Positions 18,416 through 64,000 of a stretch of DNA of 64,000 nucleotides are shown here, one piece after another. Source of the stretch: Clostridium sp. C105KSO13. GTDB lineage: Bacteria > Bacillota > Clostridia > Lachnospirales > Lachnospiraceae. The DNA lies in NCBI RefSeq assembly GCF_001517425.1, contig NZ_FBWL01000157.1:1-64000 (forward strand), read 5' to 3'. The position numbers and the translations under genes were made by a program. The number at the start of each line of letters is the position of its first letter. Position 1 is the stretch's first letter. Below the pieces are notes generated by a model that saw nothing but the letters and a program-made list of their open reading frames with translations, did not search any database and was not told where the DNA came from.

Positions 18416-18507
18416 CTTATGCGGAAAGGAACAGTAGTTATGAAAAACAATAAAAGCCCGCCTATTATTTCCGTCACAAAGCGTAAAATACATAAGGAGG
18501 TGTGAAA

Positions 18508-21500: not shown

Positions 21501-23466
21501 AACGATGGAAGAGGATAATGCAGGGTTCAAAATGGAAACCGGACAGGATCTATCTGATGAGGATAAGATGAAAATAACCTATAACGTGAAATTTGCGCCC
21601 CTAGAGATAGATACTGTAGATGAGGAATATACCAATACAGCAATTGCAAAGGGGAGTAATACAAACGCTAGCCAGGACGATAATAAGGTCGCTGTGACAG
21701 AAAGAGATGCTGCTTTGCAAGTTGTAAAGCAGGCGGACAGGAATGATTATATTGTGGGTGATACCGGAAAGTACACCCTCCTAATATTGGAACAGGTAGA
21801 CGGAGCCTCTGCAAAGCAGGTGACGGTAAAAGATACCTTTGATAAGGAAGGCATGACGATCATTGAAGATTCAATCACTGTGAAGGTCAATGGTGAGACT
21901 ATTACACCTAAATCCATTATCCTAAATGAGGCCAAAAATAGCTTTGTGATTGAAACTGGGGTGGATCTATCCTGGAAGGATAAAATGAAAGTATTTTATG
22001 ATGTGAAATTCAATCAGCCGCTAGAAAGTGAAGAAACGACCAATACAGCGGTTGTAAAAGCTGATAACAGTAATGAGGATACCACGGACTTCACAGCGAC
22101 TGTGAAAGAAATTATCCCTGTATTAAAAGTGGATAAAGGTTCTGAAAAAGCAGATTATACAGTAGGGGAAACCGGAACTTATACTATATCGATAAAGCAG
22201 ACCAAAATAAGAGGTGTTGCAAAGCAGGTTATCATAACAGATGCCTTTGATAAAGAAGGGATGATAATAGAGGAAGATTCCATAGTCATGAAAGTTAATG
22301 GCGAATCCATTACACCTAAATCCATTACTCTAAATGAAGCTCAAAACGGGTATGTCGTCGATACGGGTATGGATTTAGGAAAGCAGGACGTGATGACGCT
22401 CTCCTATGATGTAAAATTTCAACAAGCTGTAGAGGATAGAAGAACCACGAATACGGTTGTAGCTAATGCCGCAAATGCAGCAGAAAGCCAAGCTGATCAT
22501 TCTGTAGTGGTAAGGGATGCCATACCTGTTCTGACTGTAGAGAAAGCTTCTGATAAAGAATTCTACATGGTAGGGGATACCGCAAAATACTTGATTACTG
22601 TGAAACAGGCAAAAGAGTATGCTGTTGCCAAACAGGTTGTCATAAAAGACAGATTTGACCGGGAAGGAATGTCCATTGTGGAAGAGTCCATTCAAATAAA
22701 GGTCAATAATCAGGAAATCACTCCTCAGCTTGTCAGTCTTAATACTGAAAAAAACAGTTATACCATAGAAACAGGTGTGAATCTGGTGCAGTCTGATATA
22801 TTGACAATTACTTATGATGTAAAATTTGGACAACCTATTTATAAGGATGAAGCTACGAACACAGCGACTGCCAATGCAGATAATGGGGAAGAAGCGGTGG
22901 ATAAGCTTACTGTATCGGTAGAACGGCCTGTGCCAACATTGACACTACTAAAGGAAGCTGATAGATCTGAGGCAAATAAAGGGGACATTGTCACATACGC
23001 GCTGACTGTAAAAGAGAAAAACAACTACGGGGCAGCAAAAAATGTAAGCATAAGCGATTCACTGGAGCATGAGGGTGTCGTTTATTTAAAAGATACGATT
23101 AAAGTCTATGATAAAGATATGGAGGATATCACAAAAGATTGCGAGATTACTGTAAATGACAGAGACTTTCAGATTAATACCCACGAAGAACTAGAACAGG
23201 GAGAAGCCCTCTCTGTTGTATATGAGACACGATTGGAAGATGTTCATGCCGGTGATGATATTAAGAATATTGCCATTGCAAAGGGATCCAATACGGAGGA
23301 AGTAACTGTAGAAGCACACGTACAGGTTCCAACTATTGCAGAAGCCGTAGAAACAGGCATTAAAAACCATGCGGGAGTATATGCAGGAATTGCTGTGGGT
23401 TTATTGGCGATTGCAGGAATACTTATAAAGCATAACAGGAGGTTTAAAGATGACGGTAAGATTTAA
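18508..23466 (+). CDS. Giant repeat surface protein (DUF11/isopeptide-type domains)
   Basis: About 1,652 residues. TTG at 18508 is preferred over GTG at 18502 because of spacing from AAGGAGG. It has a signal peptide (about 12-38, ending SHAKD), then an N-terminal globular part (about 40-330). Next come a pilin-like isopeptide-type domain and about eight DUF11-like repeats, each starting like LxVxKxADKxxYxVGDTxxY and continuing AKQVxIxDxFDxEGM. The last repeats are most alike. The C-terminus has VETGIKNHAG, one hydrophobic helix and KHNRRFKDDGK. This resembles a divergent LPXTG-type sorting signal but lacks a canonical motif. Probably a stalk-like adhesin or pilus subunit, possibly fixed by the element's sortase. 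Confidence 0.85.
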   Translation: MNVNRILRKWIRILPLSFTVTFMLIGFVISPIVSHAKDVTAMNQKTFERLNDLIFRYNNSAEYYTTGNIVTTTRTNSMDAPSLIDQNDHFSLSRWKSMYNNSIFTRAKREGKPATLFEIRNLNSTITYTYKNMGMQNGKSVDCKVTYSGFVPTNDYNSVIWQGYSYPCIDISHSITDGYWSMFLKQFHINMEFVYEDGAPANVAEFYLYNGSMNLGEGIISPSTATILYVLADNNIYQPTDGVFGGHSSYFNDTVGGETKTTTDGQVLRPFDANAISMKCTGNSVSYTVFQNSIKNSDLIVNGVSWETEPNTGTGNGPNSDFWNAISFSPLRSSVAPLPEKAVIVNGKEATNIDNVDVGDELLFKVKQEVEILGMNGSAKYDSFSLKDSLPIELDYKEAYVLDEGTGKKVAASNYTLNISEDKKSINAAFTSNFLQNGMRYEGETYSLVVKALVNSSTYGLSAFQNRGSTIVDGDDANTNSIKITAKPPTLAITKSASKYEWQVGDKVNYTVKVTHAIDSSRVPFKNMIVSDISLPNGLVATDYSVAGVSGATVEKSGNGWLAKAARMEPGQSLTVTYHCTAMESANGKETVNIAKARADNAPEVQDKAEIYVNTATLQIGKNVSMYEWRVGDEVDFTVKVKNTAAGSIARNVRISDLTLPDGLNLKTAPSLSAPTSILNPVSGSKTVAGETQSKQVISSVAKSTGGWTASISDLAANQEATITFHCTADKNVNGTEIQNTARTKADNAVEVKAAAKIWINTPGLKIDKSADIGKVKVGDLITYTVKVRNTKAGTLARNVVIEDALDDEAAAYAKLQKNSIALTDSDGKKIEDATISVEGNSFKIETGRMLVCPQEYYGIWDIDNAKDMSEGSKLNPKGVTKESVLTVEYQVKITNDEATGEEIKNTAAASCDEGVSVKDKDTVMVNGPHLDVVKDSDKKAYTTEETAEYLLTVRQTREGYSAKDVVVTDHIQEPGATILADTIKVKINGTVISPDVVTMEEDNAGFKMETGQDLSDEDKMKITYNVKFAPLEIDTVDEEYTNTAIAKGSNTNASQDDNKVAVTERDAALQVVKQADRNDYIVGDTGKYTLLILEQVDGASAKQVTVKDTFDKEGMTIIEDSITVKVNGETITPKSIILNEAKNSFVIETGVDLSWKDKMKVFYDVKFNQPLESEETTNTAVVKADNSNEDTTDFTATVKEIIPVLKVDKGSEKADYTVGETGTYTISIKQTKIRGVAKQVIITDAFDKEGMIIEEDSIVMKVNGESITPKSITLNEAQNGYVVDTGMDLGKQDVMTLSYDVKFQQAVEDRRTTNTVVANAANAAESQADHSVVVRDAIPVLTVEKASDKEFYMVGDTAKYLITVKQAKEYAVAKQVVIKDRFDREGMSIVEESIQIKVNNQEITPQLVSLNTEKNSYTIETGVNLVQSDILTITYDVKFGQPIYKDEATNTATANADNGEEAVDKLTVSVERPVPTLTLLKEADRSEANKGDIVTYALTVKEKNNYGAAKNVSISDSLEHEGVVYLKDTIKVYDKDMEDITKDCEITVNDRDFQINTHEELEQGEALSVVYETRLEDVHAGDDIKNIAIAKGSNTEEVTVEAHVQVPTIAEAVETGIKNHAGVYAGIAVGLLAIAGILIKHNRRFKDDGKI

Positions 23467-33327: not shown

Positions 33328-33400
33328 TAAGCTGAAATATAAAATACTCTGTAACTGAAATATGTGCTATAATCAGGAAAAGAAAAACAGGAGACAGGAT

Positions 33401-34126
33401 ATGGGAGAAATCATTGATTTTATAAAAGGAAACAAAGATTATTTTGAAAATTTTGTTACTCGCAGCACCTATCATTCTAACGGGATTGAAGGGAATACTT
33501 TGAGTTATGCGGAAACATATGCTATCATTTTTAATGACAATGAGTTTACAGTAAATGCCAAGCCCAGAGAGTTATATGAAGCAATCAACCATAAATATGC
33601 ATTAGACTATTTGTTTCATCATGTAGGTGAGCCACTATCGGAAAAGATGATAAAGGATTTAGGACAGATTGTAAATAAAAACATCAATGAGATTGAAGGC
33701 TACAGGAAAGAGCCAGTGATGATAAGAGGCGTTGAGCATATTCCGCCTGAGCCGGAAAAAGTCCCACAGGCAATGATGTATTTTGTCTACAATATTTCAC
33801 ATACGGATTATGAAAATATTTTCGTTAAGCTGGCTGATATGCATATCAACTTTGAAAGGATACATCCGTTTTCTGATGGGAATGGAAGAACGGGTAGGCT
33901 GTTGTTGAATTATGAATTACTGAGAGAAAATTATGCGCCTATAGTGATTCCAAAAGAGGAGAGAAGTCAGTATTTTCAGATGCTGGCTGCATGTGATTTA
34001 AAAGCGATGTCCAGTTATTTCAAAGATTTGGAGACTCGGGAAGTTGAGATTCTGAGAAAATTGGGATTTCAAAAAGACACTTCTCTCAAAAAAGTAAGAG
34101 AATCAAATGTAGGCCCAAAGCTATAA
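33401..34126 (+). CDS. Fic-domain protein 1 (AMP-transferase type)
   Basis: About 241 residues, start at MGEIIDFIKG with AGGAGACAGGAT. An earlier ATG at 33362 overlaps a TATAAT. The Fic core motif HPFSDGNGRTGR (about 154-165) is complete, with catalytic His and the GNGR anion hole. An N-terminal inhibitory motif SNGIEGN (about 26-32) carries the Glu that blocks ATP. Fic enzymes attach AMP or related groups to target proteins. With the inhibitory Glu on the same chain this is a self-restrained form. Next to a paralogue. Confidence 0.88.
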   Translation: MGEIIDFIKGNKDYFENFVTRSTYHSNGIEGNTLSYAETYAIIFNDNEFTVNAKPRELYEAINHKYALDYLFHHVGEPLSEKMIKDLGQIVNKNINEIEGYRKEPVMIRGVEHIPPEPEKVPQAMMYFVYNISHTDYENIFVKLADMHINFERIHPFSDGNGRTGRLLLNYELLRENYAPIVIPKEERSQYFQMLAACDLKAMSSYFKDLETREVEILRKLGFQKDTSLKKVRESNVGPKL

Positions 34127-34141: not shown

Positions 34142-34936
34142 ATGCCGATCATAGATAATGAAAATCAAATTCGAGAAATTGAAATGGGATTAAATCTTAT
34201 AGAAAAGGCAGAGAGTGATCCGCTTATTCAAGAGCCTTTTGCAAAGGATTTTTCTTTACGGTTCTGTTGGAGCAGTAATGCAATTGAGGGAAATACTTTG
34301 AATCTGGAAGAAACGGTTTCTGTCATTGAATATGATGAAGTGAGAAGTGGACATACCTATTCGGAGTACCATGAAGCAAAGAACCTGTATCAGGCCATTA
34401 GTCAGTTGCTTGTCCCTTTCAAAAAACAAGAAATCACTGAAGATTGGGTGAAAGATGCAAATGGAATCATCTTAGGCAAGAAGAGTGATTATAGAGAAAG
34501 CCCTGTATATATCGGGACACTAGTTGAAGCTATATTCTACCCTCCGGACTATGAAGAAATACCTGCATTAATGAAGCAATTTATTGTAGATATTCCATGC
34601 GAAGGAAATTCTGTAAAGGAGGTATTGGAGAGAGCAGCAGAGTTTCATATCCGGTTTGAAAGAATTCATCCTTTTCAGGATGGTAATGGAAGAGTTGGCC
34701 GGATGATATTGAATCAACAGTTGATCAATCATGGTCTGTTACCATTAGCAATTGAACCGAAAGGAAAATACCGCCAAGCATTCCGGCAATATGACAAAAA
34801 CAAAGATATTTCCTTGATGACCTACACATTATGTAAGGGAGAGATGGAGTCAATTAATAAGATTCAAGAGCTTGTAAAAAAAAGAAACCAGCAGATTAAG
34901 CCCGGCAAAAAGAAGGAATATGTTCCCAAAATGTGA
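34142..34936 (+). CDS. Fic-domain protein 2 (AMP-transferase type)
   Basis: 264 residues with GGGAGGAGC. The motif HPFQDGNGRVGR lies at about 177-188. The inhibitory SSNAIEGN lies at about 44-51 with Glu49. It is related to but not a close copy of the preceding Fic protein. Both might be regulatory toxins or target transfer-related or host enzymes. A tandem pair of self-inhibited Fics of different sequence is unusual. The promoter of the third antisense RNA starts directly after its stop. Confidence 0.88.
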   Translation: MPIIDNENQIREIEMGLNLIEKAESDPLIQEPFAKDFSLRFCWSSNAIEGNTLNLEETVSVIEYDEVRSGHTYSEYHEAKNLYQAISQLLVPFKKQEITEDWVKDANGIILGKKSDYRESPVYIGTLVEAIFYPPDYEEIPALMKQFIVDIPCEGNSVKEVLERAAEFHIRFERIHPFQDGNGRVGRMILNQQLINHGLLPLAIEPKGKYRQAFRQYDKNKDISLMTYTLCKGEMESINKIQELVKKRNQQIKPGKKKEYVPKM

Positions 34937-36487: not shown

Positions 36488-36859
36488 TTGATTAACCGGA
36501 ATGTTATTATTGGTGTTCGTTTGACGCAGAAAGAATATGAGTACTTATGTAAGAAAGCAAAACAGGATCCTGATACACGTTATAAAAACGGTGATAAAAA
36601 CCTTTCCGGTTATATAAGAAACTATGTTTTAAAAGGAGCCGGATACGGAGATATCCATATTCGAAAAGAAATTGAAAATATGGCATACCAGATACGTAAG
36701 ATTGGTGTAAATATCAATCAGGCTACAAGGAAAATCAATAGCGGATATGGTACAGCAAAGGCAGTATCGGAACTGCAGGCTGACATGGCTCATCTTACTA
36801 AAAGCTTTGACGAATTTATTGATAAAATCACATTGGAGGGAGGCACATTGTGGCAATAA
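36488..36859 (+). CDS. mobC: MobC-like relaxosome accessory protein
   Basis: 123 residues, TTG start. The sequence RNVIIGVRLTQKEYEYLCKK followed by LSGYIRNYVLKGAG is the ribbon-helix-helix start of MobC/BacterialMob proteins. The second half has the family signature NMAYQIRKIGVNINQATRKI. MobC binds oriT and helps the relaxase to open and nick DNA. Its gene overlaps the relaxase start by 10 bp. Confidence 0.88.
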   Translation: MINRNVIIGVRLTQKEYEYLCKKAKQDPDTRYKNGDKNLSGYIRNYVLKGAGYGDIHIRKEIENMAYQIRKIGVNINQATRKINSGYGTAKAVSELQADMAHLTKSFDEFIDKITLEGGTLWQ

Positions 36860-38328
36860 CCAAGCTGATGAACATTAAGACAAGCAGTTATGGTGCCGGC
36901 AGACATTTGTACAACTCAATACAATATATTTTAAATCCGGAAAAGACTAAGGGCGGCCTTTTGGTGGGCGGCAATACTGGTGCTGTGTGCGATGAAGTAT
37001 ATGAGGTCATGATGGAGACAAAAAGAGTCTGGGACAAGATGGATGGAAGGCAGGGATACCATTTTGTTATCAGCTGGAAGCCAGGAGAAATCGAAGAGGA
37101 AAATGCCGTCCAGATTATAAAAGAATTTTGTGAAGAATATTTAGGAGAAGAGTATGATTATGTGTTTAGTGTACACGATGATCATGCACATATGCACGGG
37201 CATATTGTTTTCAATTCTGTCAGAAGAACAGACGGCTATAAATATCGTTATATCAAAGGCGATTGGGAAAAGTTCATCCAGCCTATCACTGATAAAGTGT
37301 GTATGAGTCATGGCCTTCCTAAGTTAGAATATGGGTCTAATCGTAAGGGGAAATCTTATGGTGAATGGTATAGCGAGAAGAATGGCAAAACCACGGGAAT
37401 AAAAATTATTAAAGCCGATATTGATTCAGCTATTACCAGATCGGATTCTTACTCTTCCTTTTTGAGCGTGATGGGAAAATTTGGGTACAAAATAGAACCA
37501 CGACTCATAGGCGGAGTACCCGAACTTGCACTGACAGCTCCGGGGCAGGAAAGAGCAAGAAGAACAAACAAATTGGGAGCGGGATATAGGCTTAAGGACA
37601 TCAAGGAGCGTATTGGAAAAGTGAAGTTTAGAATTGAGGCTCCAAAGCTACCGGCAGTAAAAAGCTGCACTATGAAATTTACGGTTAAGAAATTACCTCA
37701 GGCGTCCCGATACCAGGTACGAAAGGTCCGTGAAATCTATAAAGTACAAACCTTTTATACACGAAAGAATCCTTTTTTGGTCAACCAGTCTAACATCCGA
37801 AAAAATATGCGGCAGATTGAAAAGCTTACAGGCGATTGCCGTTATTTGCTACGAATGAAGATTAAAAATGAATCTGAGTTGACGCAGCGAGAAGAACTAC
37901 TGAAAAAAGAAGAAAGGACCTTGAAAAATCAGCGATCAGCTTTAATATCAGCTGCACATGTTCTGGAAGATGATAAAGAATATGCGGAGTATCTGAAACT
38001 GCAACAGGAATTACAGGAGATATCTGAATGGGATGATCGCTTTGAAGATGTGCAGGATGCGTTGGAGGCACTGGAAGAAAAACTGCCTTTGGGAGAAGAA
38101 ACTATCGAAGCAGATACTACCAAGATAAAGGATCAGTTGGAGTCAATAAGAAAGGAAAAAAATATCATCCGGCGTATAAAGAAAAGGGATGGTGAATTGC
38201 AGATAATAGAGCGTCAGGAACGAATAAATATTTTGCCCACTGCAGAGCAGATTATGGAGAAAGCGAGAGGAGAAAAAAAATGGCAGAAGATACAAACCCA
38301 GAAGAAATCAGACCAGAAGAAAGGGTAA
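36850..38328 (+). CDS. MOBP-type relaxase
   Basis: 492 residues, GTG start overlapping mobC. N-terminal relaxase domain with YILNPEKTKGG and the metal-binding histidine triad HDDHAHMHGHIVFNS (about 108-122). The catalytic Tyr is probably one of those in the first 30 residues (SSYGAGRHLY, SIQYIL). The C-terminal half is a long charged coiled-coil (about 330-490). It would nick oriT, stay attached to the strand and guide it to VirD4. Confidence 0.92.
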   Translation: MAITKLMNIKTSSYGAGRHLYNSIQYILNPEKTKGGLLVGGNTGAVCDEVYEVMMETKRVWDKMDGRQGYHFVISWKPGEIEEENAVQIIKEFCEEYLGEEYDYVFSVHDDHAHMHGHIVFNSVRRTDGYKYRYIKGDWEKFIQPITDKVCMSHGLPKLEYGSNRKGKSYGEWYSEKNGKTTGIKIIKADIDSAITRSDSYSSFLSVMGKFGYKIEPRLIGGVPELALTAPGQERARRTNKLGAGYRLKDIKERIGKVKFRIEAPKLPAVKSCTMKFTVKKLPQASRYQVRKVREIYKVQTFYTRKNPFLVNQSNIRKNMRQIEKLTGDCRYLLRMKIKNESELTQREELLKKEERTLKNQRSALISAAHVLEDDKEYAEYLKLQQELQEISEWDDRFEDVQDALEALEEKLPLGEETIEADTTKIKDQLESIRKEKNIIRRIKKRDGELQIIERQERINILPTAEQIMEKARGEKKWQKIQTQKKSDQKKG

Positions 38329-49710: not shown

Positions 49711-51933
49711 ATGATTCAAAGAAAAAGAACACCCTGGGGAGTTCTATTATCAGTGCTTGTGTTCCTGTGTGTGCTTGCTTATTTTCTTTGTGGACTCTTC
49801 CTGTTGTCAGGGGTAAACCTCACAAATTTTCAAGATAAGCTGCTGTATATCCTTCTTCATCCGTTTCAAAATTGGTGGAATGATAAGACAGTTGGCTTTA
49901 TCGGTGTAGCATTTTTGATATGGGTAATGTTTGTTGCCTGGTACCTGGATAATAACCGTAATTATCAGTCCGGAAAAGAGAAGGGGACAGAAGAATGGGG
50001 AAATGTTAAAAAATTGAGCAAAACCTTGCGTGACAAAGATGAAATGAAAAACATGTATCTGAGCCAAAATATTGCAATTTCAAACTCATTACTGTCTAAC
50101 CAAAATATGCTTGTTATTGGTGGCTCCGGTAGTTATAAGACTACTTCTGTACTTACCCCTAATATTCTTATGGCTTCCTGCACAAACGTGATTTTAGATA
50201 TAAAAGGGGATTTGCTGAGAAAGCACGGAAAATATTTAATCAAGCACGGAGTGACTGTAAAGTCTTTAAATTTTATTAATCCGGAGGAATCAGATCGGTA
50301 TAATCCGTTTGCTTATGTAGCAAGGGAGACAGATCTGATTAAATTAATCACCAATACCCAATTATCGGTAAAACCTCCAGATGCAATGAAAGGGGATCCG
50401 TTTTGGGATGACGGAGTAGCATTATATTTGCAGGCAATGTTTTATTATGAATGGCTGCAGGCTAAGGATGAGGGAAGAAAAGCATGCTTTAATAATATTT
50501 TGGTCCTTGTAAATATGGAGAGCAAACACGTAGATGAGGAAGGGACTACAGCACTGCAGCAGGAAATGAATAGGCTTGCAGCTATAAAGGGCGATGATTA
50601 TCCTCCGGTACGTGATTACCGGAAATTAAAAGAAGGAGCAAGTGAAACAGTACGCAGCATTGTAATCATGGTGAATGCAATGCTGCGTTTGTGCGAGACA
50701 GCCTCAATAAAAAGGATACTTTCTGATGATGACCTGGATATTAAGTCCCTGGGGCTGGGCATAAATGGAAATCCAGATAAAAAGACGGCACTTTTTCTTG
50801 TTATGCCTGACAATGATGAGTCTTTCAACTTCTTTATCAGCATGTTTTATACACAGCTTTTTGACGTGCTACTATATACGGCAGATCATGAGTGTCACGG
50901 GCAACTGCCGATACATGTGCGGCTCTGGGCCGATGAGTTTTATGCAGGGCCAAAACCAAACAATACAGAAAAGCTTATGGGTACCATACGAAGCCGTAAC
51001 ATGTCAATTGTTCCGATCCTTCAATCTGTTTCACAAATCAAAGCAATATTTCCACAAGATAAATGGGAAATATTTATGGAAAATTGTGCAGCCGCCATTT
51101 ATCTGGGATCTGGGCCAATGGCTCATTCTACACACAAATATATTTCAGATCTATTAGGGGACATGACAATTGATACCCGCAATGACAACCGGCAGCTGGG
51201 AATGCAAGGGCAGACCAGCCTAAATAATGGTAGAGACGGAAGAACACTTATGACTCCGGCTGAGGTAAAAAGAATGTCCAGGAAAGATTGTATCTTATTT
51301 ATTGAGGGACAATATCCAATCTACGATCAGAAGGCACTACCATTTAGAACACAACGGTGGATAGAATCTGCAGCGCTGGCATTACCATTTGGCTATAAAC
51401 ACCCAGTAAGAGTTATATATAATGAAAATACCATGACTTATCGCACTTTGAAGACAAAGAAAACTATCCAATTTCTTGATAAAAGGGAAGTACAGTTTTT
51501 TAAAGAAGCTGAAAAGACCGATTCCACCATTAGAGTATTTGAAATGGATGAGGAGGATTTTCTTTACTTGAACTGGAGAAAGAAGCCGCCGCTTTCGGAA
51601 GAAGAAGTAACAGAAATATTCCAACAGGCAAAAGCAGAGAAAAACAATGATGAACAACAGGAGGAAGAGCTTCCAGAGGATGTAAAACTTTTAGGAGATC
51701 AGAAGAACGTACCGGATTCCGGTACGGAAGTGCAAACACAATGGGATCTTTCCGGCAGTGTGTTTCAATGTATAAAAAGATATGCAGTGCAGCTGAGTGA
51801 GGCGCAGTTAAATGAGATATTGGTGGGACTTGAATCTGGGTTGAGTGAAAAGCAGATAAAGTCCTATTTTTGTCTGCCGGCAGAAAAAATGAATCAATAC
51901 CGACGTGCATATATGTTCAGCAGTTCTAAGTAA
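49711..51933 (+). CDS. virD4: VirD4/TraG-type coupling protein
   Basis: 740 residues, ribosome binding site AGGAGGT. Two N-terminal helices (about 10-32 and 58-75). Walker A VIGGSGSYKTTS (about 135-146), Walker B VRLWADEFYAG (about 408), and the family motif IPILQSVSQIKA-like. It docks the relaxosome and pumps DNA. After about 650 comes an acidic linker, V-P-D-S-G-T (667-672) encoded by the palindrome, and a C-terminal helical domain (LSEAQLNEILVGLESGLSEK) shared with the 38280 protein. VirD4 C-termini typically confer substrate choice. Confidence 0.93.
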   Translation: MIQRKRTPWGVLLSVLVFLCVLAYFLCGLFLLSGVNLTNFQDKLLYILLHPFQNWWNDKTVGFIGVAFLIWVMFVAWYLDNNRNYQSGKEKGTEEWGNVKKLSKTLRDKDEMKNMYLSQNIAISNSLLSNQNMLVIGGSGSYKTTSVLTPNILMASCTNVILDIKGDLLRKHGKYLIKHGVTVKSLNFINPEESDRYNPFAYVARETDLIKLITNTQLSVKPPDAMKGDPFWDDGVALYLQAMFYYEWLQAKDEGRKACFNNILVLVNMESKHVDEEGTTALQQEMNRLAAIKGDDYPPVRDYRKLKEGASETVRSIVIMVNAMLRLCETASIKRILSDDDLDIKSLGLGINGNPDKKTALFLVMPDNDESFNFFISMFYTQLFDVLLYTADHECHGQLPIHVRLWADEFYAGPKPNNTEKLMGTIRSRNMSIVPILQSVSQIKAIFPQDKWEIFMENCAAAIYLGSGPMAHSTHKYISDLLGDMTIDTRNDNRQLGMQGQTSLNNGRDGRTLMTPAEVKRMSRKDCILFIEGQYPIYDQKALPFRTQRWIESAALALPFGYKHPVRVIYNENTMTYRTLKTKKTIQFLDKREVQFFKEAEKTDSTIRVFEMDEEDFLYLNWRKKPPLSEEEVTEIFQQAKAEKNNDEQQEEELPEDVKLLGDQKNVPDSGTEVQTQWDLSGSVFQCIKRYAVQLSEAQLNEILVGLESGLSEKQIKSYFCLPAEKMNQYRRAYMFSSSK
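51709..51725. repeat. 17-bp palindrome, site 14 (in virD4)
   Basis: GTACCGGATTCCGGTAC, identical to site 11 in virB4, read as V-P-D-S-G-T; flank AAGAAC before and GGAAGTG after. Confidence 0.85.
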
Positions 51934-51946: not shown

Positions 51947-52192
51947 ATGAGAATACGAAGTCCAACAAGGGTGTTTAGAGAAAACTTTAATAATGAAAAA
52001 GAATATAAGTTGTCCTCAGGAAGGAGCATTAAATTCATGTGTATAGAGAATAAGGAATTGTATTCACAGCAGACAAAGGCGGCATTAATTGAGAAACGAG
52101 AATTTGAGTTGACGTCACAGCAGCTGAGGTCTTTGGTGGAAATAATGGAGGAAAATCAGATTTTGGAGGTAGAGATAGACAATGCAAAATGA
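51947..52192 (+). CDS. Small hypothetical protein, 81 aa
   Basis: Start at MRIRSPTRVFRENFNNEKEY behind AAGAGGAAAAG. A basic N-terminus, a beta-like part (YKLSSGRSIKFMCIENKELY) and a helical end (LTSQQLRSLVEIMEENQILE). It overlaps the following RadC-like gene by 11 bp, so the two are co-translated. No family recognised. Confidence 0.55.
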   Translation: MRIRSPTRVFRENFNNEKEYKLSSGRSIKFMCIENKELYSQQTKAALIEKREFELTSQQLRSLVEIMEENQILEVEIDNAK

Positions 52193-52502
52193 ACATGAAT
52201 TGGAGGTTGTAAATGTCAGGTTAGTAAGAGAGCCTTCTTTGTATAGCGAAACGCCATTGAATACTCCTCAAGCAATTACGGAACTTATGGCGGATGAGCT
52301 CTCGAAATATGACAGAGAAGTTATGTGTGTGCTGAATATGAAAACGAACGGACAGTGTATTAATATGAACATTGCTAGTATGGGTGCGATTAATCATACT
52401 CTTATAAGCCCAAGGGAAATATTTAAAAGTGCCATTTTAGCAAATGCGTCCCATGTCATTTTGCTACATAATCATCGGAGAAAGGGTATGTTGACATACT
52501 GA
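52182..52502 (+). pseudogene. radC: RadC-like JAB-domain protein, 5' part (interrupted)
   Basis: The first 98 codons (to 52475) encode a RadC/JAB domain of the kind common in ICEs: TPQAITELMADELSKYDREV, VLNMKTNGQCINMN, SPREIFKSAILANASHVILL and HNH. The frame then passes into foreign sequence (RRKGMLTY, stop). The missing part, beginning PSGSVQPSHEDLVVTEQLEK, appears in the correct frame at 56024. The break falls exactly in the metal-binding H-x-H-P-S-G motif. RadC-like proteins are putative metal-dependent hydrolases or DNA-processing proteins of unclear role. Confidence 0.92.
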
Positions 52503-55912: not shown

Positions 55913-56218
55913 TTGAAAAAACTAAATACAGAATATTGGAAAAAGCTACTGGAAACAGTGGCTTTTTCTAATGGTGAGATAAGTTTGTATGAACTTGTCC
56001 AAAAGGAACATAGACATTTCCACCCTAGTGGTTCTGTGCAACCATCTCATGAGGACCTCGTAGTTACAGAACAATTAGAAAAATGTGGGCAGCTTTTGGG
56101 CATTCCTGTTAGGGACCATGTAATTATCGGCGGCACCAACAAAAAAATGTATAGCTTTGCTGAAAATAGACAGTTAGAGGGAAAGAAAGCCCCAATATTA
56201 CACAGGAAAAAAAGCTAA
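55913..56218 (+). pseudogene. radC: RadC-like protein, 3' part with transposon-supplied start
   Basis: From 56024 the sequence reads PSGSVQPSHEDLVVTEQLEK, then LLGIPVRDHVIIGGTNKKMY and ends at 56218; this is the missing half of the gene at 52182. Upstream, 37 codons inside the transposon (MKKLNTEYWKKLLETVAFSN onwards) are in frame with it and have a strong TATGGAGGTTAATAA before a TTG. The C-terminal half might therefore be made as a fusion. Without the first His pair it should lack activity. Confidence 0.88.
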
Positions 56219-56332: not shown

Positions 56333-56494
56333 ATGAAATCATTTATGGAAGAATATGGAGTTATTATCGTAGCGGCAATTATCATCATGATACTCGTTGT
56401 AGCGGCGTCTCCACTTGGAAATTCAATTAAGAGCGGAATTACAGAAGCAGTAGCTAAACTGACGTCTGCACTTGCAACTACAGTGGCACCATAG
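56333..56494 (+). CDS. Small pilin-like subunit, 53 aa
   Basis: ATG at 56333 behind GAGGAGGAATT. The sequence is MKSFMEEYGVIIVAAIIIMI, then LVVAASPLGNSIKSGITEAV and a Ser/Thr/Ala end. A short start, EEYG, one long hydrophobic helix and a small polar tail are the form of Flp/Tad-type pilins. It differs in having no leader before a Gly cleavage site. Three later genes of the operon start with the same MKxFxEEYG motif. Likely the major pilin. Confidence 0.72.
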   Translation: MKSFMEEYGVIIVAAIIIMILVVAASPLGNSIKSGITEAVAKLTSALATTVAP

Positions 56495-56497
56495 AAT

Positions 56498-56524
56498 AGG
56501 CAGCTTGTAATGAGCTGCCTTTTA
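56498..56524 (+). terminator. Hairpin after the pilin gene
   Basis: AGGCAGCT (56498-56505) and AGCTGCCT (56513-56520) pair perfectly, then TTTTA. As the operon continues only 20 bp later, it may be a partial terminator that gives more pilin than ATPase mRNA. Confidence 0.65.
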
Positions 56525-56544
56525 AAGGTGAGCAGGAGGTTGAA

Positions 56545-57591
56545 ATGAAACTAGAGAAAGAATGGGACTTTAAGGATGAAAATTTTGGTGAGCTATTACC
56601 GTATATACAGGATGATATGATTACGGATATTAATTACAATGGCTCAGATGTGTGGGTAGAACACTTACAAAAAGGTATATATAAAGCGCCTGTGCAGCTT
56701 TCGCCGGAATTTGTAAGTCAATTTAGTATTCGTATTGCAAATGTAGTAAGCCAGCAGATCAATAAGTACAATAATGTGTTGGAAGCAGAAACGGATACTC
56801 TCCGGATTTCCATTATACACCCCAGTGCGACGAATACCGGATATTCTATATCTATACGGAAAACTCCGGTAGTGATGAGATTATCATCTCAAAGCATGTT
56901 GGAAACAGGATATTGCTCAAATGAAATCTTGGATTTTCTCACTAATTGTGTGATCGGGAAGATGAATATAGTTTTTTGCGGACAGCCAGGTGCAGGGAAA
57001 ACAGAACTTTTAAAGTTTCTTACTCAATATATACCCAGGGAAGAAAAGGTGATGACCATAGAAGATAACCTGGAAATCCATTATAAAGATATAAATCCTG
57101 GGGCAAATTGTGTGGAAATGAAGGTGGATGAGGAATTTTTCTCCTATACAAAAGCAATTAAGACAGCATTGCGGCAAAACCCGCAATGGGTTCTGCTCTC
57201 AGAGGCACGTTCGGCGGAAGTGAAATATCTGTTGGAATGTTTCTCTACAGGACTCCACGGTCTCACAACGCTCCATACGGATGACACCAGGAAAATACCT
57301 GACCGCATAAAAAATATGATGCAAGATGCATATGCTGCATCCAGACTAGAAAATGATATTTACAGTTTTCTAAATGTAGGGGTACTGCTCCGTAAGAGAG
57401 TTTCTGAGAATCAAGAAGTAACACGATGTATCGATCAGATCTGCTTGTTTGATCGTGTAGGAGAAGAAAATATAATCCAGATGGTGGTAGAGGACGGAAA
57501 AGTGGTGTCAAGGGAAATGCCAGTGAATGTTAAAAGAAAGTTTGAACATCAGGGAATCTGTGCACCTTTTGAATCAGCGTTAAAAATCTGA
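56545..57591 (+). CDS. CpaF/TadA-type secretion ATPase
   Basis: 348 residues, start behind CAGGAGG. An N-terminal domain with DDMITDINYNGSDVWVEHLQ (about 28-47) is followed by Walker A GQPGAGKTELLKF (about 147-159), the Asp box IEDNLEI, a divergent Walker B (LLSEARS) and the His box GLHGLTTLHTDD (about 230-241). It would power assembly of the Tad-like fibre at the membrane. At 348 residues it is slightly short for CpaF (about 400-450). Confidence 0.9.
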   Translation: MKLEKEWDFKDENFGELLPYIQDDMITDINYNGSDVWVEHLQKGIYKAPVQLSPEFVSQFSIRIANVVSQQINKYNNVLEAETDTLRISIIHPSATNTGYSISIRKTPVVMRLSSQSMLETGYCSNEILDFLTNCVIGKMNIVFCGQPGAGKTELLKFLTQYIPREEKVMTIEDNLEIHYKDINPGANCVEMKVDEEFFSYTKAIKTALRQNPQWVLLSEARSAEVKYLLECFSTGLHGLTTLHTDDTRKIPDRIKNMMQDAYAASRLENDIYSFLNVGVLLRKRVSENQEVTRCIDQICLFDRVGEENIIQMVVEDGKVVSREMPVNVKRKFEHQGICAPFESALKI

Positions 57592-57602
57592 GGAGGTGAA
57601 AC

Positions 57603-59126
57603 ATGTCAGTACGGAATGAAAAAGTGAAGAAAGCTTCCTTGTTTAAATACTTGAATCCCAAAAATCTAAAGGGCGAAATCAAAGGATATGGGTATACCTT
57701 TACACCTGGAGATTTTCTGAAATATATTGTTTTGGTATATGGTGGAATAGTTGCGTTTTCATATTTATTTAAATTGAAGATACCTTATATTATTTTTATT
57801 GCAGCAGCGGTTACACTGCTCCTGCCTGATATATTCCTGAATCAATTTCGGAATATGTATGAGGAAAAACGCTTTGAAGATATTACGGCATATATGGAAC
57901 AATTGCTTTATTCGTTTAAACGAAGAGCAAAGATATTATCCGCCCTGCAGGATACACTAACTCTATTCTATGATGAGCATAGTAAGAGTCAGGGGGGACT
58001 TTATGAGGCTATACAGAAGGCAATTGATCATATACAGACATCTGAAACAGAAGGCAATATTTACGAGGAGGCTTTTTCCTACATAGAAAAAGAATACGGA
58101 TGCAAACGGTTATATAAAATACACGATTTCCTTATACGTGTGGAGGCTGCTGGCGGAGAATGCTCTAATGCAGTAGAAATCTTGTTGGATGATAGGAAAT
58201 TATGGATGGACAGAGTATACACTCTTCAGAAGGATAAGGCAAATGTAAAGGTGAAAATCACAATAGGTATTGCCCTATCCTTTCTTATTTGTGCAATGGG
58301 AATATATATGCTGCCGCCTGATTTTCATGTCATAAATAATCCCCTGTCTCAGGGAATCACAACACTTGTCATTATAACGAATGTGTTGATATGGTATGCA
58401 TCGCAGAAAAAATTATCCGGAAGCCTTCTAGTGTCAGGGAATGAAACACCATTTAAAGAAATTCAGAAGCGCTATGAGTATGTCATGCATGTAGATTTAA
58501 AACAGAAGAGAAAAAAGGCACTGATAACAGCTGCAGCATTTTCACCATTGATTTTATTGGCATATTGGAAAGTGAATATAACGAGTGCTGCCTTTATGGC
58601 GGTATTTTGCTGGCTGATTGCATCGCAGCCAAAGAGACACTATAAGACATCTTTAAAAATAATAACAAAGGAAGTCGAAAAAGCATTTCCTGAGTGGCTG
58701 ATGAGCCTGGCCCTGCAGCTGCAGACAGATAATGTGCATGTATCTATCTCTAAGACGATCGGTACGGCACAGGAGGTATTGCAGGAAGAATTGCAAAAGC
58801 TACTGGATGGAATCGAACAAAGACCAAATTCTTTGCAGCCGTATACTAATTTTTTTCGGAAAATACAGCTGCCTGATATCACATCAGCCATGAAAATGTT
58901 GTATTCCATGGCTGAGTTTGGAGCTGCCGATGTGGAGAAACAAATAGGTGCGTTGGTACAACGCAATACAGTTTTGATGGACAAGGCTGAACGGATTCGA
59001 CAGGAAGACTCCCTTTCTGGAATTAGTTTTTTAATCTTGCTGCCGATGCTGACAGGTGTTATAAAGCTTATTGTGGATTTGGGACTGGTAGTTATGAGCA
59101 TTTTGTCAACAATCAATACGATTTAG
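57603..59126 (+). CDS. TadB/TadC-like platform protein, two GspF domains
   Basis: 507 residues. It contains two units of the T2SSF kind. The first is at about 85-265 (MEQLLYSFKRRAKILSALQD, then FLIRVEAAGGECSNAVEILL, helices at 220-260). The second is at about 350-505 (FPEWLMSLALQLQTDNVHVS, then MAEFGAADVEKQIGALVQRN and a final helix). Tad systems usually have TadB and TadC as separate proteins of about 300 residues; here they appear as one. Ribosome binding site GAGGAGGTG. Confidence 0.8.
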   Translation: MSVRNEKVKKASLFKYLNPKNLKGEIKGYGYTFTPGDFLKYIVLVYGGIVAFSYLFKLKIPYIIFIAAAVTLLLPDIFLNQFRNMYEEKRFEDITAYMEQLLYSFKRRAKILSALQDTLTLFYDEHSKSQGGLYEAIQKAIDHIQTSETEGNIYEEAFSYIEKEYGCKRLYKIHDFLIRVEAAGGECSNAVEILLDDRKLWMDRVYTLQKDKANVKVKITIGIALSFLICAMGIYMLPPDFHVINNPLSQGITTLVIITNVLIWYASQKKLSGSLLVSGNETPFKEIQKRYEYVMHVDLKQKRKKALITAAAFSPLILLAYWKVNITSAAFMAVFCWLIASQPKRHYKTSLKIITKEVEKAFPEWLMSLALQLQTDNVHVSISKTIGTAQEVLQEELQKLLDGIEQRPNSLQPYTNFFRKIQLPDITSAMKMLYSMAEFGAADVEKQIGALVQRNTVLMDKAERIRQEDSLSGISFLILLPMLTGVIKLIVDLGLVVMSILSTINTI

Positions 59127-59138
59127 GGGTGCAGGTAT

Positions 59139-59246
59139 ATGAAAGAATTTTTTGAGGAGTATGGAGCCATTATCTTCATATCCATTATAGGTCTGGCAGT
59201 AGTGTATGGAATGTGGGAAATGCTGAAAATGGTTTGCACTATTTAA
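59139..59246 (+). CDS. Tiny pilin-like peptide, 35 aa
   Basis: MKEFFEEYGAIIFISIIGLA then a short end, VVYGMWEMLKMVCTI. It has the EEYG start and one helix but almost no tail. GGGGTGCAGG lies before its ATG. Probably a minor subunit or initiator of the fibre. Too short for most gene finders. Confidence 0.6.
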   Translation: MKEFFEEYGAIIFISIIGLAVVYGMWEMLKMVCTI

Positions 59247-59260
59247 GAAAGGCGATAAGG

Positions 59261-59422
59261 ATGAAAGGTTTTATAGAGGAATATGGGGGCGTTATTGTGG
59301 CCTGCCTTATGGGGCTTTTGATATTAGGAATCATATCTTCCTGCATTACAGACGGAACATTTGTTAATTTGATTAAAATGTTTTTTCAGGGCGTCGGCAC
59401 TACAGTTACAAATTGGAGGTAG
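59261..59422 (+). CDS. Small pilin-like subunit, 53 aa
   Basis: ATG at 59261 with AAGGCGATAAGG. It reads MKGFIEEYGGVIVACLMGLL, then LGIISSCITDGTFVNLIKMF and FQGVGTTVTNWR. Same EEYG motif, helix and a 25-residue tail with one Cys. A paralogue of the 56333 product. A longer frame from 59213 overlaps the preceding gene and lacks a ribosome binding site. Confidence 0.65.
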   Translation: MKGFIEEYGGVIVACLMGLLILGIISSCITDGTFVNLIKMFFQGVGTTVTNWR

Positions 59423-59425
59423 CAA

Positions 59426-59899
59426 ATGAAAACATTCATGGAAGAGTATGGGAAAGTTATTGCACTTGTAATCGTACTTGTAGGACTGATTTTATATGTA
59501 TTTGGTTCAGATGCCCACGGCTTGTTGGGAGAATTATCCAAGGTGAAGGGCGTGGAAACTGTGGGGGATGCTGATAATTCTGAACTTCTATCGTCTGTTG
59601 GCAGTCGGGATAATCCGACGTTAGAGGTCAAGCCTAAAAAGCTTAGGATTGGAAATGAATACAATTTATTAGATAAAAATGAATATTACATTACAGCCAG
59701 GAATGCAGATGATGCTGAACTGGCTGTTTCTGTGAAAAGTATTATATCCCCGGAAGGCGAAGCATTAACGGGATTCGTCAATCCGAATGCTTTTAAGCCG
59801 GACAGATCAGGAATCTATGTTATTAAATATGAAACACATGAGGTGTATAAAACATTTGTGAAGACAACGGAAAAGGATTACCAATTTGTTGTAGATTAA
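59426..59899 (+). CDS. Pilin-like protein with soluble domain, 157 aa
   Basis: MKTFMEEYGKVIALVIVLVG starts the same kind of anchor. From about residue 30 it carries an extracellular domain with LEVKPKKLRIGNEYNLLDKN and the Ig-like AFKPDRSGIYVIKYETHEVY, of the type seen in DUF5011 domains. Likely a tip or minor pilin. Starts 3 bp after the previous stop, with GGAGG inside that gene's end. Confidence 0.7.
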   Translation: MKTFMEEYGKVIALVIVLVGLILYVFGSDAHGLLGELSKVKGVETVGDADNSELLSSVGSRDNPTLEVKPKKLRIGNEYNLLDKNEYYITARNADDAELAVSVKSIISPEGEALTGFVNPNAFKPDRSGIYVIKYETHEVYKTFVKTTEKDYQFVVD

Positions 59900-59916
59900 G
59901 AAAGGGGGTGGCAAGT

Positions 59917-60249
59917 ATGAAAGGGGCTATAGAAACTATGATGGGGGTCGTGATCATTGCCTTGTCAACAGTTTTGATAACCGGATTTATTATAGCGTCT
60001 TTAAATACGCAAAAGGCGCAAAATTATCATGCGGCAGTGGTTGCAGAAGTGGAAGCAAGTGATTTTTCACCCACGGTAATAGCCAGTTGTGAAGAAAAAG
60101 CAATAGAAAATGGATATACGGACTTACAGATTGAACAAATGACCTCTGTAAAAGAAGAAAAATATGCGAAAGTTACGTTGATGTATGATTATCCAATGCC
60201 TCTGCTAAATGTATTACTGGAACATAAGATTGTTGGCTATGCCAGATAA
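59917..60249 (+). CDS. TadE/pseudopilin-like protein, 110 aa
   Basis: Start at MKGAIETMMGVVIIALSTVL behind AAAGGGGGTG. One N-terminal helix (about 8-30), then a soluble domain with a single Cys pair partner missing (SCEEKAIENGYTDLQIEQMT) and the beta-like KVTLMYDYPMPLLNVLLEHK. The form suggests a TadE/F-like pseudopilin that helps assembly. The identity is inferred from place and topology. Confidence 0.6.
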   Translation: MKGAIETMMGVVIIALSTVLITGFIIASLNTQKAQNYHAAVVAEVEASDFSPTVIASCEEKAIENGYTDLQIEQMTSVKEEKYAKVTLMYDYPMPLLNVLLEHKIVGYAR

Positions 60250-60258
60250 GGGGAGATT

Positions 60259-60858
60259 ATGAAAAATGCTGTTATCAGTTTCTTTTTGATTGTGATACTT
60301 ATATTTGGGGCTGTCATTGTGAATACGGCGGAAACCAAAACAACTAGGGAAAATGAGTTGGATAGCAATCTGGATTCCGCAATGAGAAGTTCTATGAAAG
60401 CTCTCATGACAGATGAAGATTATCAAACAGGAAAGTCTGGACCGGATGAATTTATAGCTGACTTTATTCAGAACTTTTTCGTCAATACCACAAGTGATGC
60501 AAAATTTAAGATAGACATTAAGGCTGTAGATATAGATAAAGGTCTGCTAGATGCAGAGGTAACAGGCTATTACAACCAGGTAATAGGTACGGGGAAAGTA
60601 TCAAGCAGAAAAACTGTAGTGCTAGAAGACTATGATAACATGGACAATGTGTACTATACGGTGACATTTAATGACGGTGACAACATTATTAAACAGATCA
60701 ATGTGCATATAGGAGATTCTCTCAAAGGAGAAATGCTGCCTCAATCAGATAAATATAAGGGGGGGTGGACTTTGGAAGGAAAAGAACTGATTTATACAGC
60801 CGATAACATTGATCAGATAAAAATGGAATCGCCTATAGTCTTAAATGCAGTCAAGTAG
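60259..60858 (+). CDS. Membrane-anchored pilus-operon protein, 199 aa
   Basis: MKNAVISFFLIVILIFGAVI anchor, then an extracellular part: NELDSNLDSAMRSSMKALMT, a helical segment, and a beta-rich end (DNMDNVYYTVTFNDGDNIIK). The A-M-R-S-S-M-K-A-L region is typical of secreted proteins beside Tad-like systems in Lachnospiraceae, from memory. Ten bases after the pseudopilin gene. Function unknown; likely another minor subunit. Confidence 0.6.
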   Translation: MKNAVISFFLIVILIFGAVIVNTAETKTTRENELDSNLDSAMRSSMKALMTDEDYQTGKSGPDEFIADFIQNFFVNTTSDAKFKIDIKAVDIDKGLLDAEVTGYYNQVIGTGKVSSRKTVVLEDYDNMDNVYYTVTFNDGDNIIKQINVHIGDSLKGEMLPQSDKYKGGWTLEGKELIYTADNIDQIKMESPIVLNAVK

Positions 60859-60904
60859 CTTAAAACTTTCTGAAATCAACAAAAAAAATGAAAGGGGAAA
60901 GACA

Positions 60905-63900
60905 ATGGTAAAGGGTTGGAAATACATATTATCAATGATTTTGGTAATAACGTTGGTTACCGCCGGGCCGCTTACAGTTGTTCATGCGGAGGATCCCAAT
61001 GCTGATGCTGCTGTGACAAATGAAAATCAGCCAAATCTCTCCAAGCTCTCAAACATCATGGAAGCAGAGGAGCCTTACCAGGCATTTGGACAACGAAAAG
61101 ATAGAAGTGATATCCTGGACAAATTATCAGAAAAAGAAATCTATGAACTTATGATCCTGATGCGCTACCAATATCTGAAAGAGGATATCCAAGGGCAAGA
61201 TCAATCCCTGAAAGCCTATCAGGACATAGTTGAAAACTGGAAAAAGAAAGTAGCGCTTAATAAGAACACGGATGCTATTGATAAGGATATAAAAGGGAAA
61301 TATTCGGAATGGAATCAAGAAGCATTTTCTTTTCTTCCGGACAAATCTATTGTTTATGAAAGGGACAATGTAGAAAAGAAAGTAACTGATTTTGTCACTT
61401 ATGCTGAATATCTTCAAACACTGACCGCAGTTGATGTGAGCCAGTTTTTAAAACTCCTGGAAGTGATTTCTGATGCCGACAGCTCTGAAATGTATACTGA
61501 GGCTGTGAAGGATTACGAGAATTTTCGGAATGAAGCATACGGCTTCGATGATGCAGAAACGATCGAAACTGAACAGCCAAATATTGATAAGCCAGATATG
61601 GATGGAAGAGAATCAAGTGAAGACTCTGATTCTTCGGCAGGCGGTGTCCCTGAATCAGAAATCCAGGAAAAGAACCAAACGGAAATTAATGATTCAGAAA
61701 CCACCAAAGGTACGTTAGAAAAGTCTATAACAGCTAGAACTACTACACATATTTCAATTTTAGCTGCAACGAATGTTGCACGAATCGGTAGTACATATTA
61801 CACTTCATTTGACGCAGCATTTGCAGCACTTCCAAGCGGGGGGACATTATATGTCTTAAAGAGTACTACTATTGGACATAACGTAAATACTAAGTCGTTT
61901 ACAATCATGCCAGAAGGAGCAAATGTTGTTTTAACTGCGGATTCAAGTGTATCATCGGATGCTGCTGGTGCTATTGCTACTCCGAGTGGGGCCTCTTCAA
62001 CAGCGACATGGAACTTTTCGGGAAATGGTGGATATACTTTAACCATTGATGGCGCCGGGAAATATGGTTCGGGAATACTTTCCTCCGGGTCCAGCATAAC
62101 AATCAATTTAAAAAGTGGAGTACGTCTCAGAAATGCCTCAACTAATGGGGTGTGGAATGCCAAGGGGACAACAAATCTCTATGATAATGCCATAATTTAT
62201 AACTCCAGTTATACGGGCATTGCAAGTCAGGGAACTGTAAATGTGTACGGTGGAGAGATTTACGGTTCAGCACAGCAGGGAGTACGAGCAGATAAAATTA
62301 CTATGTCTGGCGGAGCAATACATGATAATGGTGCTGCAGGGATACAGACACAATCTGTGGATGATAATACAAACATAAGCGTTTCTGGTGGTAATATTTA
62401 TAATAATGGTTCCGATGGATTACTAGGATACGCTGCCAATAATGTATGCACAATCGATGTATCAGGAGGAACAATTTATTCCAATGGTTCATCAGGAATA
62501 AGAATTCCGGTCACATCTGGCACTTTAAAAATTTCTGGCAGCATTAATATAAATAAAAACGCAGTTGGTGTTGTAACAGCATCGACAACTTCAATGTCAG
62601 GTGGTTCGATCAATGCTAATAAAGGCAGTGGTGTTAATACTTCAAAATCTTTTTCAATGACCGGCGGCAATATATATTCCAATACTACCAGTGGAAACGG
62701 TGGTGGAATATACAACGCAGGAACACTTACACTTTCAGGTGGTACTGTTTATTCTAATACAGCAACTGGCGGTGGCGGCGTTTATAACAGTGGGACATTG
62801 ACTTTAAGTGGAGCAACTATAAAAACTAACAATGCGAGCACAGGAGCCGGTATTCAGAATACCGGTACATTAACCGTTTCAAGTGGCACTCTAAGCGGCA
62901 ACACCAGCAGCGGGCACGGTGGGGGTATTTATAATACCAATGCCCTAAATATCTCTGGAGGGTATGTGAACAGTAATACTTCTAAGGTCAATGGTGGTGG
63001 TGTTTACCTGGCGGGAGGAAAGCTAAATATGTCCGGCGGATATATCCAAAATAATACGGCCAGTAATTATGGTGGTGGGATATGTGTAGCAGCGGGAACT
63101 ATATCTCAATTGAACGATGGAAATATAACTGGAAATACTGCAATAAATTATGGCGGTGGTCTGTTTACGAATGTAAATGCCCCACTTAATAATAATACAA
63201 TCACAGGTAATAAGGCTGTAAACAACGGTGGCGGAGGAATCTATATAAATTACACAACTCTTACTCTAGCGGGAAATAATATAAGCTCTAATACTGCTGG
63301 TGATTCTGGTGGCGGGATATGCGGGTATCAAGCAACTATAAACCACAATAGTGGTACAATGAATAGCAATAAAGCGGGCGTGAATGGAGGCGCTATATTT
63401 TCTGGATCGGCAACAAATGTTAATGTTAAGGGAGGAACTTTAAGCAACAATGAAGCCACATCAAATAATGGTGGGGCAATTTATATACAAGATGGTGTTG
63501 GAACAATGAGTTCAGGCACAATCACAGGTAATAAGGCTGTAAATGACTGTGGTGGTGGCATCTTCATAGATAATGGATCCACCTTAAATCTAAAGGGTGG
63601 TACTTTGTCATCCAACTCATCTAAATGGGGTGGTGGTGTGTTCAACCAATATGGAGGCGTTGTCACCATGACAGGTGGAACTGTCTCTGGAAACAGCGCA
63701 TCTGATAGAGGAGGAGGCTTGTTCAATAAGTCAAGTGGAGCCACAAAGGGGATTATGAATCTTACAGGCGGGACAATTTCCGCAAACACGAGTACGAATA
63801 CAGGATCAGGCATAGCAGTACAGTCAACCATCAATGTTGGTGGTGCAGTAAATATCAAGAATGACAACAATGTTGCTCTGTTTGATGGAAATTACCTTAA

Positions 63901-64000
63901 CATTATATCTGCTCTGACTGGAAGCACTCCAATCATGATAGTACCCAATAGTTATGCAAACGGTAGTAAGATTGCAAGTGTAGCATATGGCACAAAACTT
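60905..64000 (+). CDS. Secreted beta-helix surface protein (partial, open at window end)
   Basis: At least 1,032 residues, no stop before 64000. ATG behind GAAAGGGGAAAGACA. A signal peptide (about 1-29, ending VVHAED) leads to a helical N-terminal part (about 40-220, LSEKEIYELMILMRYQYLKE), an acidic linker (about 220-275), and from about 290 a long array of roughly 20-residue units of the kind LxxSGGxIxxNxAxxxGGGI. These are right-handed parallel beta-helix repeats, of the Pmp or pectate-lyase type, as in adhesins. It closes the pilus operon and may be displayed by it or by sortase; the C-terminus is outside the window. Confidence 0.88.
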   Translation, partial: MVKGWKYILSMILVITLVTAGPLTVVHAEDPNADAAVTNENQPNLSKLSNIMEAEEPYQAFGQRKDRSDILDKLSEKEIYELMILMRYQYLKEDIQGQDQSLKAYQDIVENWKKKVALNKNTDAIDKDIKGKYSEWNQEAFSFLPDKSIVYERDNVEKKVTDFVTYAEYLQTLTAVDVSQFLKLLEVISDADSSEMYTEAVKDYENFRNEAYGFDDAETIETEQPNIDKPDMDGRESSEDSDSSAGGVPESEIQEKNQTEINDSETTKGTLEKSITARTTTHISILAATNVARIGSTYYTSFDAAFAALPSGGTLYVLKSTTIGHNVNTKSFTIMPEGANVVLTADSSVSSDAAGAIATPSGASSTATWNFSGNGGYTLTIDGAGKYGSGILSSGSSITINLKSGVRLRNASTNGVWNAKGTTNLYDNAIIYNSSYTGIASQGTVNVYGGEIYGSAQQGVRADKITMSGGAIHDNGAAGIQTQSVDDNTNISVSGGNIYNNGSDGLLGYAANNVCTIDVSGGTIYSNGSSGIRIPVTSGTLKISGSININKNAVGVVTASTTSMSGGSINANKGSGVNTSKSFSMTGGNIYSNTTSGNGGGIYNAGTLTLSGGTVYSNTATGGGGVYNSGTLTLSGATIKTNNASTGAGIQNTGTLTVSSGTLSGNTSSGHGGGIYNTNALNISGGYVNSNTSKVNGGGVYLAGGKLNMSGGYIQNNTASNYGGGICVAAGTISQLNDGNITGNTAINYGGGLFTNVNAPLNNNTITGNKAVNNGGGGIYINYTTLTLAGNNISSNTAGDSGGGICGYQATINHNSGTMNSNKAGVNGGAIFSGSATNVNVKGGTLSNNEATSNNGGAIYIQDGVGTMSSGTITGNKAVNDCGGGIFIDNGSTLNLKGGTLSSNSSKWGGGVFNQYGGVVTMTGGTVSGNSASDRGGGLFNKSSGATKGIMNLTGGTISANTSTNTGSGIAVQSTINVGGAVNIKNDNNVALFDGNYLNIISALTGSTPIMIVPNSYANGSKIASVAYGTKL

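Follow-up and report, generated by a model that had tools for sequence, protein, structure and literature searches.

A conserved operon of leaderless EEYG mini-pilins in Lachnospiraceae: a candidate type IV filament lineage associated with large surface proteins

The window analysed here is a stretch of 64,000 nucleotides from Clostridium sp. C105KSO13 of the family Lachnospiraceae (contig NZ_FBWL01000157.1, positions 1–64,000). Positions 56333–60858 hold a compact type IV filament-like operon. It encodes, co-directionally and with hardly any gaps, four mini-pilins beginning MKxFxEEYG (EEYG mini-pilins), an ATPase, a platform protein with two domains and another two pilin-like proteins, and a β-helix protein follows. 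The operon is not a chance arrangement, because about 100 loci carry it with a similar gene order; as judged from these sequences, it is a conserved system found mostly in Lachnospiraceae. In our view, it probably represents a new type IV filament lineage which has pre-matured pilins and displays large proteins sharing a C-terminal domain (CTD). On the more specific proposal, that the pilins are translated in mature form without use of a prepilin peptidase and that varied giant surface proteins, encoded nearby or far away, are recruited through the CTD, our judgement is evenly balanced. No description of leaderless pilins or of an EEYG operon was found in the open-access literature, an earlier report in a subscription journal being possible, and the system, which a first-pass annotation of the window had put forward as a candidate novelty, is apparently undescribed so far.

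All of the genes lie on the forward strand. P1 (56333–56494; 53 aa), the probable major subunit, is a leaderless EEYG mini-pilin with GAGGAGG directly 5′ of its ATG. It is followed by the ATPase (56545–57591; 348 aa) and the platform (57603–59126; 507 aa). Pa (59139–59246), an EEYG mini-pilin of 35 aa, was too short for the cut-off of the initial list of open reading frames (ORFs) and was recovered by a motif scan; Pa-like proteins of 33–37 aa are present in many loci. The 53-aa EEYG mini-pilin P2 (59261–59422) most likely starts at ATG 59261 rather than at GTG 59213 of the same frame, because the latter falls within the Pa gene. P3 (59426–59899; 157 aa) consists of an EEYG helix and a domain of about 110 residues that appears, by eye only, to be immunoglobulin-like. 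The remaining pilin-like proteins are PsA (59917–60249; 110 aa), a leaderless putative minor subunit, and PsB (60259–60858; 199 aa). The gene for the β-helix surface protein begins at 60905 with a signal-peptide-like start and runs past the window end at 64000; when the sequence was extended rightwards its end was found at contig position 65662, giving a protein of 1,585 aa, counted from its likely start, that ends in the shared CTD. Each component that the first-pass annotation had listed (ATPase, platform, four MKxFxEEYG proteins, a pseudopilin, a further anchored protein and a β-helix protein of more than 1,000 residues) is thus present, co-directional and in its place. We note a hairpin resembling a terminator directly 3′ of P1 (56495–56525), with a similar one in the Ruminococcus MAG_3 locus L064; by its position, it could allow P1 to become more abundant than the machine proteins. 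As a general sign of the major pilin, a terminator between P1 and the ATPase was rejected, the strict rule holding in only 3 of 80 loci.

The unusual starts of the mini-pilins are common to the system. The 104 loci were scanned with a regular expression in which the spacing between Met and the EYG-like triplet was unconstrained. The scan returned 290 ORFs in 96 loci, of which 256 have the triplet ending at residue 9. Among 200 distinct N-termini selected for that spacing, residue 2 is most commonly Lys (106) and otherwise mostly Glu, Gln or Arg, with Gly in two sequences; residue 7 is Glu in 143, residue 8 is Tyr or Phe in 197 and residue 9 is Gly in 186. A strong Shine–Dalgarno match precedes 160 of 238 mini-pilin starts, compared with 216 of 4,160 random ATGs. 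An in-frame stop lies within ten codons upstream of 132 of the 238 starts, which therefore have little room for a leader, while an in-frame start further upstream, adding five or more residues, is found in 58. With no leader and with Gly rare at residue 2, the mini-pilins do not carry a class III signal peptide ending in Gly or Ala; the first-pass annotation had remarked that a normal leader and Gly cleavage site are missing. They do, together with PsB, have at the N-terminus the hydrophobic helix, commonly with an early Glu, that is typical of type IV filament subunits, and PsA likewise starts with such a helix. By comparison, at the canonical Tad locus on contig C165 of this genome the Flp-like protein bears a long leader that ends in Gly and precedes LSVVE. 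A P1 profile gave only weak matches of uncertain meaning to sequences in the PDB (SecG, 0.005; TraM, 0.016).

The window ATPase matches T2SSE (PF00437) with E = 1e-21 and 77.6 bits against a cut-off of 24.9, which identifies it as an ATPase of the PilB/TadA/GspE superfamily, as expected for a type IV filament system; it is of the extension type and resembles TadA, VirB11 and FlaI. Among solved structures its profile best matches AfGspE (PDB entry 2oap), next VirB11 and CpaF, and next FlaI. A tree was built from 21 EEYG ATPases, the CpaF, PilB-like and PilT-like ATPases found in relatives, and three PDB sequences. It places all 21 in a single clade (99/99) that has a long branch and falls outside both canonical CpaF and the PilB group; the tree does not resolve the deeper order.

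Comparison of the platform family with single canonical TadB and TadC sequences using HHalign gave no usable signal, and structure comparison was therefore used instead. The AlphaFold2 (AF2) model of the platform, with a predicted local distance difference test (pLDDT) score of 89.8, has two helical domains. Structural matches among the top ones include OutF at residues 89–210 (Z = 9.0) and PilC at 358–465 (Z = 9.8) and EpsF at 344–477 (Z = 9.2), one set for each half, although Z scores of 9–10 can be reached by helical bundles through common arrangement. T2SSF was matched in 6 of 53 platform homologues (best E = 2.5e-4). With that caution, the protein is a polytopic, T2SSF-type platform as found in the type IV filament superfamily. 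TadB and TadC are thought to derive from fission of such a two-domain protein (PMC10191384); what had been described as a fused TadB/C-like platform is indeed a single chain with two PilC/GspF-like domains, but it is not split as in the standard Tad system. The AF2 model of PsB (pLDDT 94) has a helix of about 50 residues (2–51) and a β domain, with no leader and no early Glu; the tip-capping subunits of type IV filaments are also described as lacking the early Glu (PMC10191384). Foldseek searches of the PDB with the platform and PsB models returned nothing at E < 0.001, which is not evidence for a new fold.

No prepilin peptidase had been seen in the window, and none was found when the adjoining sequence was added: the A24 family has no match on the whole contig, and the two A24 genes of the genome sit on contigs C159 and C165. 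With proteins of the genome's canonical Tad locus as queries, the ATPase alone was matched near the loci; none of the nine others was, and no homologues of A24, TadZ, TadB, TadC, Flp or TadE were found there. Additional A24 sequences used as queries also found no match in the neighbourhoods of the loci. Neither a dedicated A24 peptidase (TadV/CpaA) nor a canonical Flp pilin was thus found next to the operon. We rejected the co-occurrence of A24 with the operon as a test of the need for a peptidase; it cannot decide on processing, because A24 is present in 150 of 150 genomes of the family. A further divergent type of ATPase (473–516 aa), perhaps of another Tad-like kind, was seen with A24 matches a few kilobases away at G029:C1:126827 and G029:C29:25162, in the same genus.

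Relatives of the ATPase (E ≤ 1e-40) are found in 22 of 150 genomes from the family Lachnospiraceae, mostly one per genus. Across the class, relatives at E ≤ 1e-50 are present in no more than 4 of 393 genomes, and two of these belong to the window's own family. Among pattern hits in GTDB representatives, tblastn recognized 492 relatives; the best 80 of these, which were kept, include carriers in Roseburia faecis, Anaerostipes hominis, Lachnoclostridium phytofermentans, Robinsoniella, Clostridium tyrobutyricum and an Erysipelotrichaceae metagenome-assembled genome. Profile searches of the 104 loci, some of which share a genome, detected the platform in 103, PsA in 98 and PsB in 93, and several of the gaps fall at contig ends. 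The genome of the window itself has a second copy of the operon (contig C143, 20078–24663), which lies between glutamate synthase-like genes and, at its opposite end, genes resembling those for an NlpC-type protein and rpsB.

Relatives of the window β-helix protein are encoded directly after PsB or directly before P1 or the ATPase in about 55 loci. Across 55 loci these large proteins have in common about 105 C-terminal residues at or near the very end, the CTD, which has no match in Pfam; the parts above it vary, including β-helices, Listeria–Bacteroides repeats and subtilases. A genome-wide search found the CTD in 18 of the 150 genomes, every one a carrier of the ATPase (18 of 22 carriers against none of 128 noncarriers; Fisher p = 9e-20, a value to be taken as a guide as the genomes are related). 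Since the large CTD proteins share the distribution of the system from genome to genome, the adhesin is no mere accessory, and the first-pass inclusion of a large surface protein in the block was justified. CTD proteins are also encoded away from the operon. One, a 1,253-aa β-helix protein on contig C170 of the same genome (L214:6149–9910), is the probable cargo of the second operon, which has none alongside; its counterpart in G029 (L215) likewise accompanies an operon with no adjacent cargo, and unlinked CTD proteins of 1,253 aa and 2,049 aa (subtilase-like) occur in G105 and G122, respectively. Three loci (L050, L109 and L119) encode PsB as a fusion with a large region homologous to the separate cargo of other loci, which argues that PsB and the cargo work together.

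Among the closest known systems is the Tad or type IVc (Flp) pilus, as encoded on C165, with which the EEYG system shares the ATPase superfamily and the small gene set; the E-Y(-G) start of its tiny pilins also resembles mature Flp, in which Glu is at +5 and Tyr at +6 (PMC3244431). The EEYG proteins differ in having no leader, an unsplit platform in place of separate TadB and TadC, an ATPase clade of their own and linked large CTD proteins, and leader-bearing Flp, TadE/F, TadZ and TadV were not found nearby. Because it lacks the class III signal peptide and several Tad features, we do not file the system as Tad: the operon is Tad-like, as had been proposed, but departs from the standard Tad arrangement. 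Closest among earlier reports is one on Gram-positive tad-like loci in which no protein bears an evident prepilin signal motif (Imam et al., 2011; PMC3244431). The EEYG loci share with these the tad-like genes and the absence of that motif, but the published loci carry tadV, tadZ and rcpC, by which they appear to be set apart from the EEYG loci, where these genes are absent. Archaeal-type filaments and their GspE/FlaI ATPases are similar in the ATPase, as the match to AfGspE indicates; however, class III signal peptides are described for type IV pilins generally, including those of archaea (PMC10191384), and the EEYG system is bacterial and has its set of CTD cargo. The minor-pilin tip complexes of type II secretion systems (T2SS) and type IVa pili are alike in their single-chain two-domain platform and in a last subunit, here PsB, without the early Glu. 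They differ from the EEYG system in that its subunits are leaderless, its ATPase lies outside the PilB group in the tree and no secretin or assembly-complex genes were recognized at its loci.

In the mechanism that we propose, the ATPase would drive the single two-domain platform in the membrane, and the platform would build a thin filament or short pseudopilus from the mini-pilins, with P1 most likely as the main subunit and Pa, P2, P3, PsA and PsB as minor or initiating subunits. The pilins would be encoded from their mature-like end; there would thus be no leader to remove, and no prepilin peptidase would belong to the system. At or on the filament the machine would hold large Sec-exported surface proteins, a β-helix protein here and proteases in some relatives, some of which may serve in adhesion. 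The CTD would dock to the machine, perhaps to PsB, to which some CTD proteins are fused.

Several observations weigh against this interpretation. No pilin family is matched above its cut-off by the mini-pilins, the best being Flp1_like in 2 of 43; every carrier genome has A24 peptidases elsewhere, which would permit trimming at an unusual site; 4 of the 22 ATPase carriers have no CTD match; and the caution on the platform Z scores applies here too. The missing pilin-family match would also suit a membrane complex of these proteins that never polymerizes into a filament, but an ATPase, a PilC/GspF-like platform, several early-Glu helix proteins and a helix-plus-β-domain protein together make up a type IV filament set, and we consider such a complex very improbable. 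A T2SS-like pseudopilus, a short filament pushing CTD proteins through the cell wall to be released or left wall-bound without display on a pilus, is unlikely but deserves more weight: there are many small subunits, and the CTD is carried, in the manner of a sorting tag, by proteins of diverse kinds, some of subtilase type. Nevertheless, the PsB–cargo fusions tie the large part to a subunit, and monoderms export Sec proteins without such a piston. Were the operon to encode an ordinary pilus, with the mini-pilins cut after residue 2 by a peptidase encoded elsewhere, Glu and Tyr would land exactly on the Flp positions; however, we know of no parallel for a two-residue leader and find this explanation improbable. 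Known pilin leaders end invariably in Gly or Ala (PMC10191384), whereas residue 2 is mainly Lys, Glu, Gln or Arg. A locus without its own peptidase is known from the MSH loci, which borrow one encoded elsewhere (PMC6668835), and an A24 gene is always available in the genome, but its presence is uninformative, A24 genes being universal among the Lachnospiraceae-family genomes.

Least probable of all, to our mind, is an apparatus for mating contact specific to conjugative elements, a role suggested by the first-pass annotation. The window copy does have transfer genes next door, namely those for a VirB4/TraG-type ATPase (27589–30303; PF19044), a relaxase with a MobA/VirD2 nuclease domain (36850–38328; PF03432) and a type IV coupling protein (49711–51933; PF02534), all on the forward strand; with an integrase, they mark the contig, which ends at 75133, as carrying an integrative conjugative element. 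The L064 operon follows relaxase-like and coupling-protein-like genes of a different element, and further copies lie near VirB4-type genes (L092), near coupling-protein-like and integrase-like genes (L047) or beside topoisomerase- and helicase-like genes (L141), while in Anaerobium L218 P3, PsB and the cargo are near radC and a relaxase-like gene. However, such neighbours occur in about six to eight of some 100 loci. Most of the 104 loci have no transfer genes within about 8 kb, and the second copy in the same genome stands in a housekeeping neighbourhood; mating contact is therefore not a general role, and the operon is chiefly chromosomal, with occasional copies on elements. The EEYG machine is not a DNA-transfer machine. 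Of the proposed minimal secretion or pilus system on a conjugative element, the type IV filament-like operon and, for the window copy, the location are retained. That copy is probably cargo of the element, and its surface protein could help cell contact.

Cleavage of the leader by a prepilin peptidase is regarded as one of the steps that define the assembly of type IV filaments; if our interpretation is correct, a natural and widespread system would show this step to be dispensable, and would escape pilin finders that rely on the signal because its genes start at the mature-like end. The CTD provides a sequence tag that predicts cargo and a handle on how giant adhesins and proteases may be put on the cell surface by Lachnospiraceae of the gut (Roseburia, Anaerostipes, Lachnoclostridium and others), and the occasional presence of the operon on conjugative elements shows one way in which such surface traits could spread.

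In the window, radC is split between HNH and PSG (52182–52502 and 55988–56218) by about 3.5 kb carrying two recombinase-like genes, one of them PF00589; the EEYG operon begins directly after the radC remnant. On the other side, 3′ of the β-helix gene, are a DNA/RNA nonspecific endonuclease (PF13930) and then, as judged by eye, a Y-family polymerase and other genes. Elsewhere in the window, two tandem, nearly identical proteins of about 233 aa with a transmembrane start and low-complexity tails (16930–17634 and 17648–18346) are followed by a 1,654-aa repeat surface protein (18502–23466), and two adjacent proteins within the conjugative element appear by eye to be Fic-domain-like (33362–34126 and 34142–34936). 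In L005 a 914-aa protein with a start that looks SIR2-like by eye, possibly a defence gene, is encoded downstream on the same contig (L005:10170–12914).

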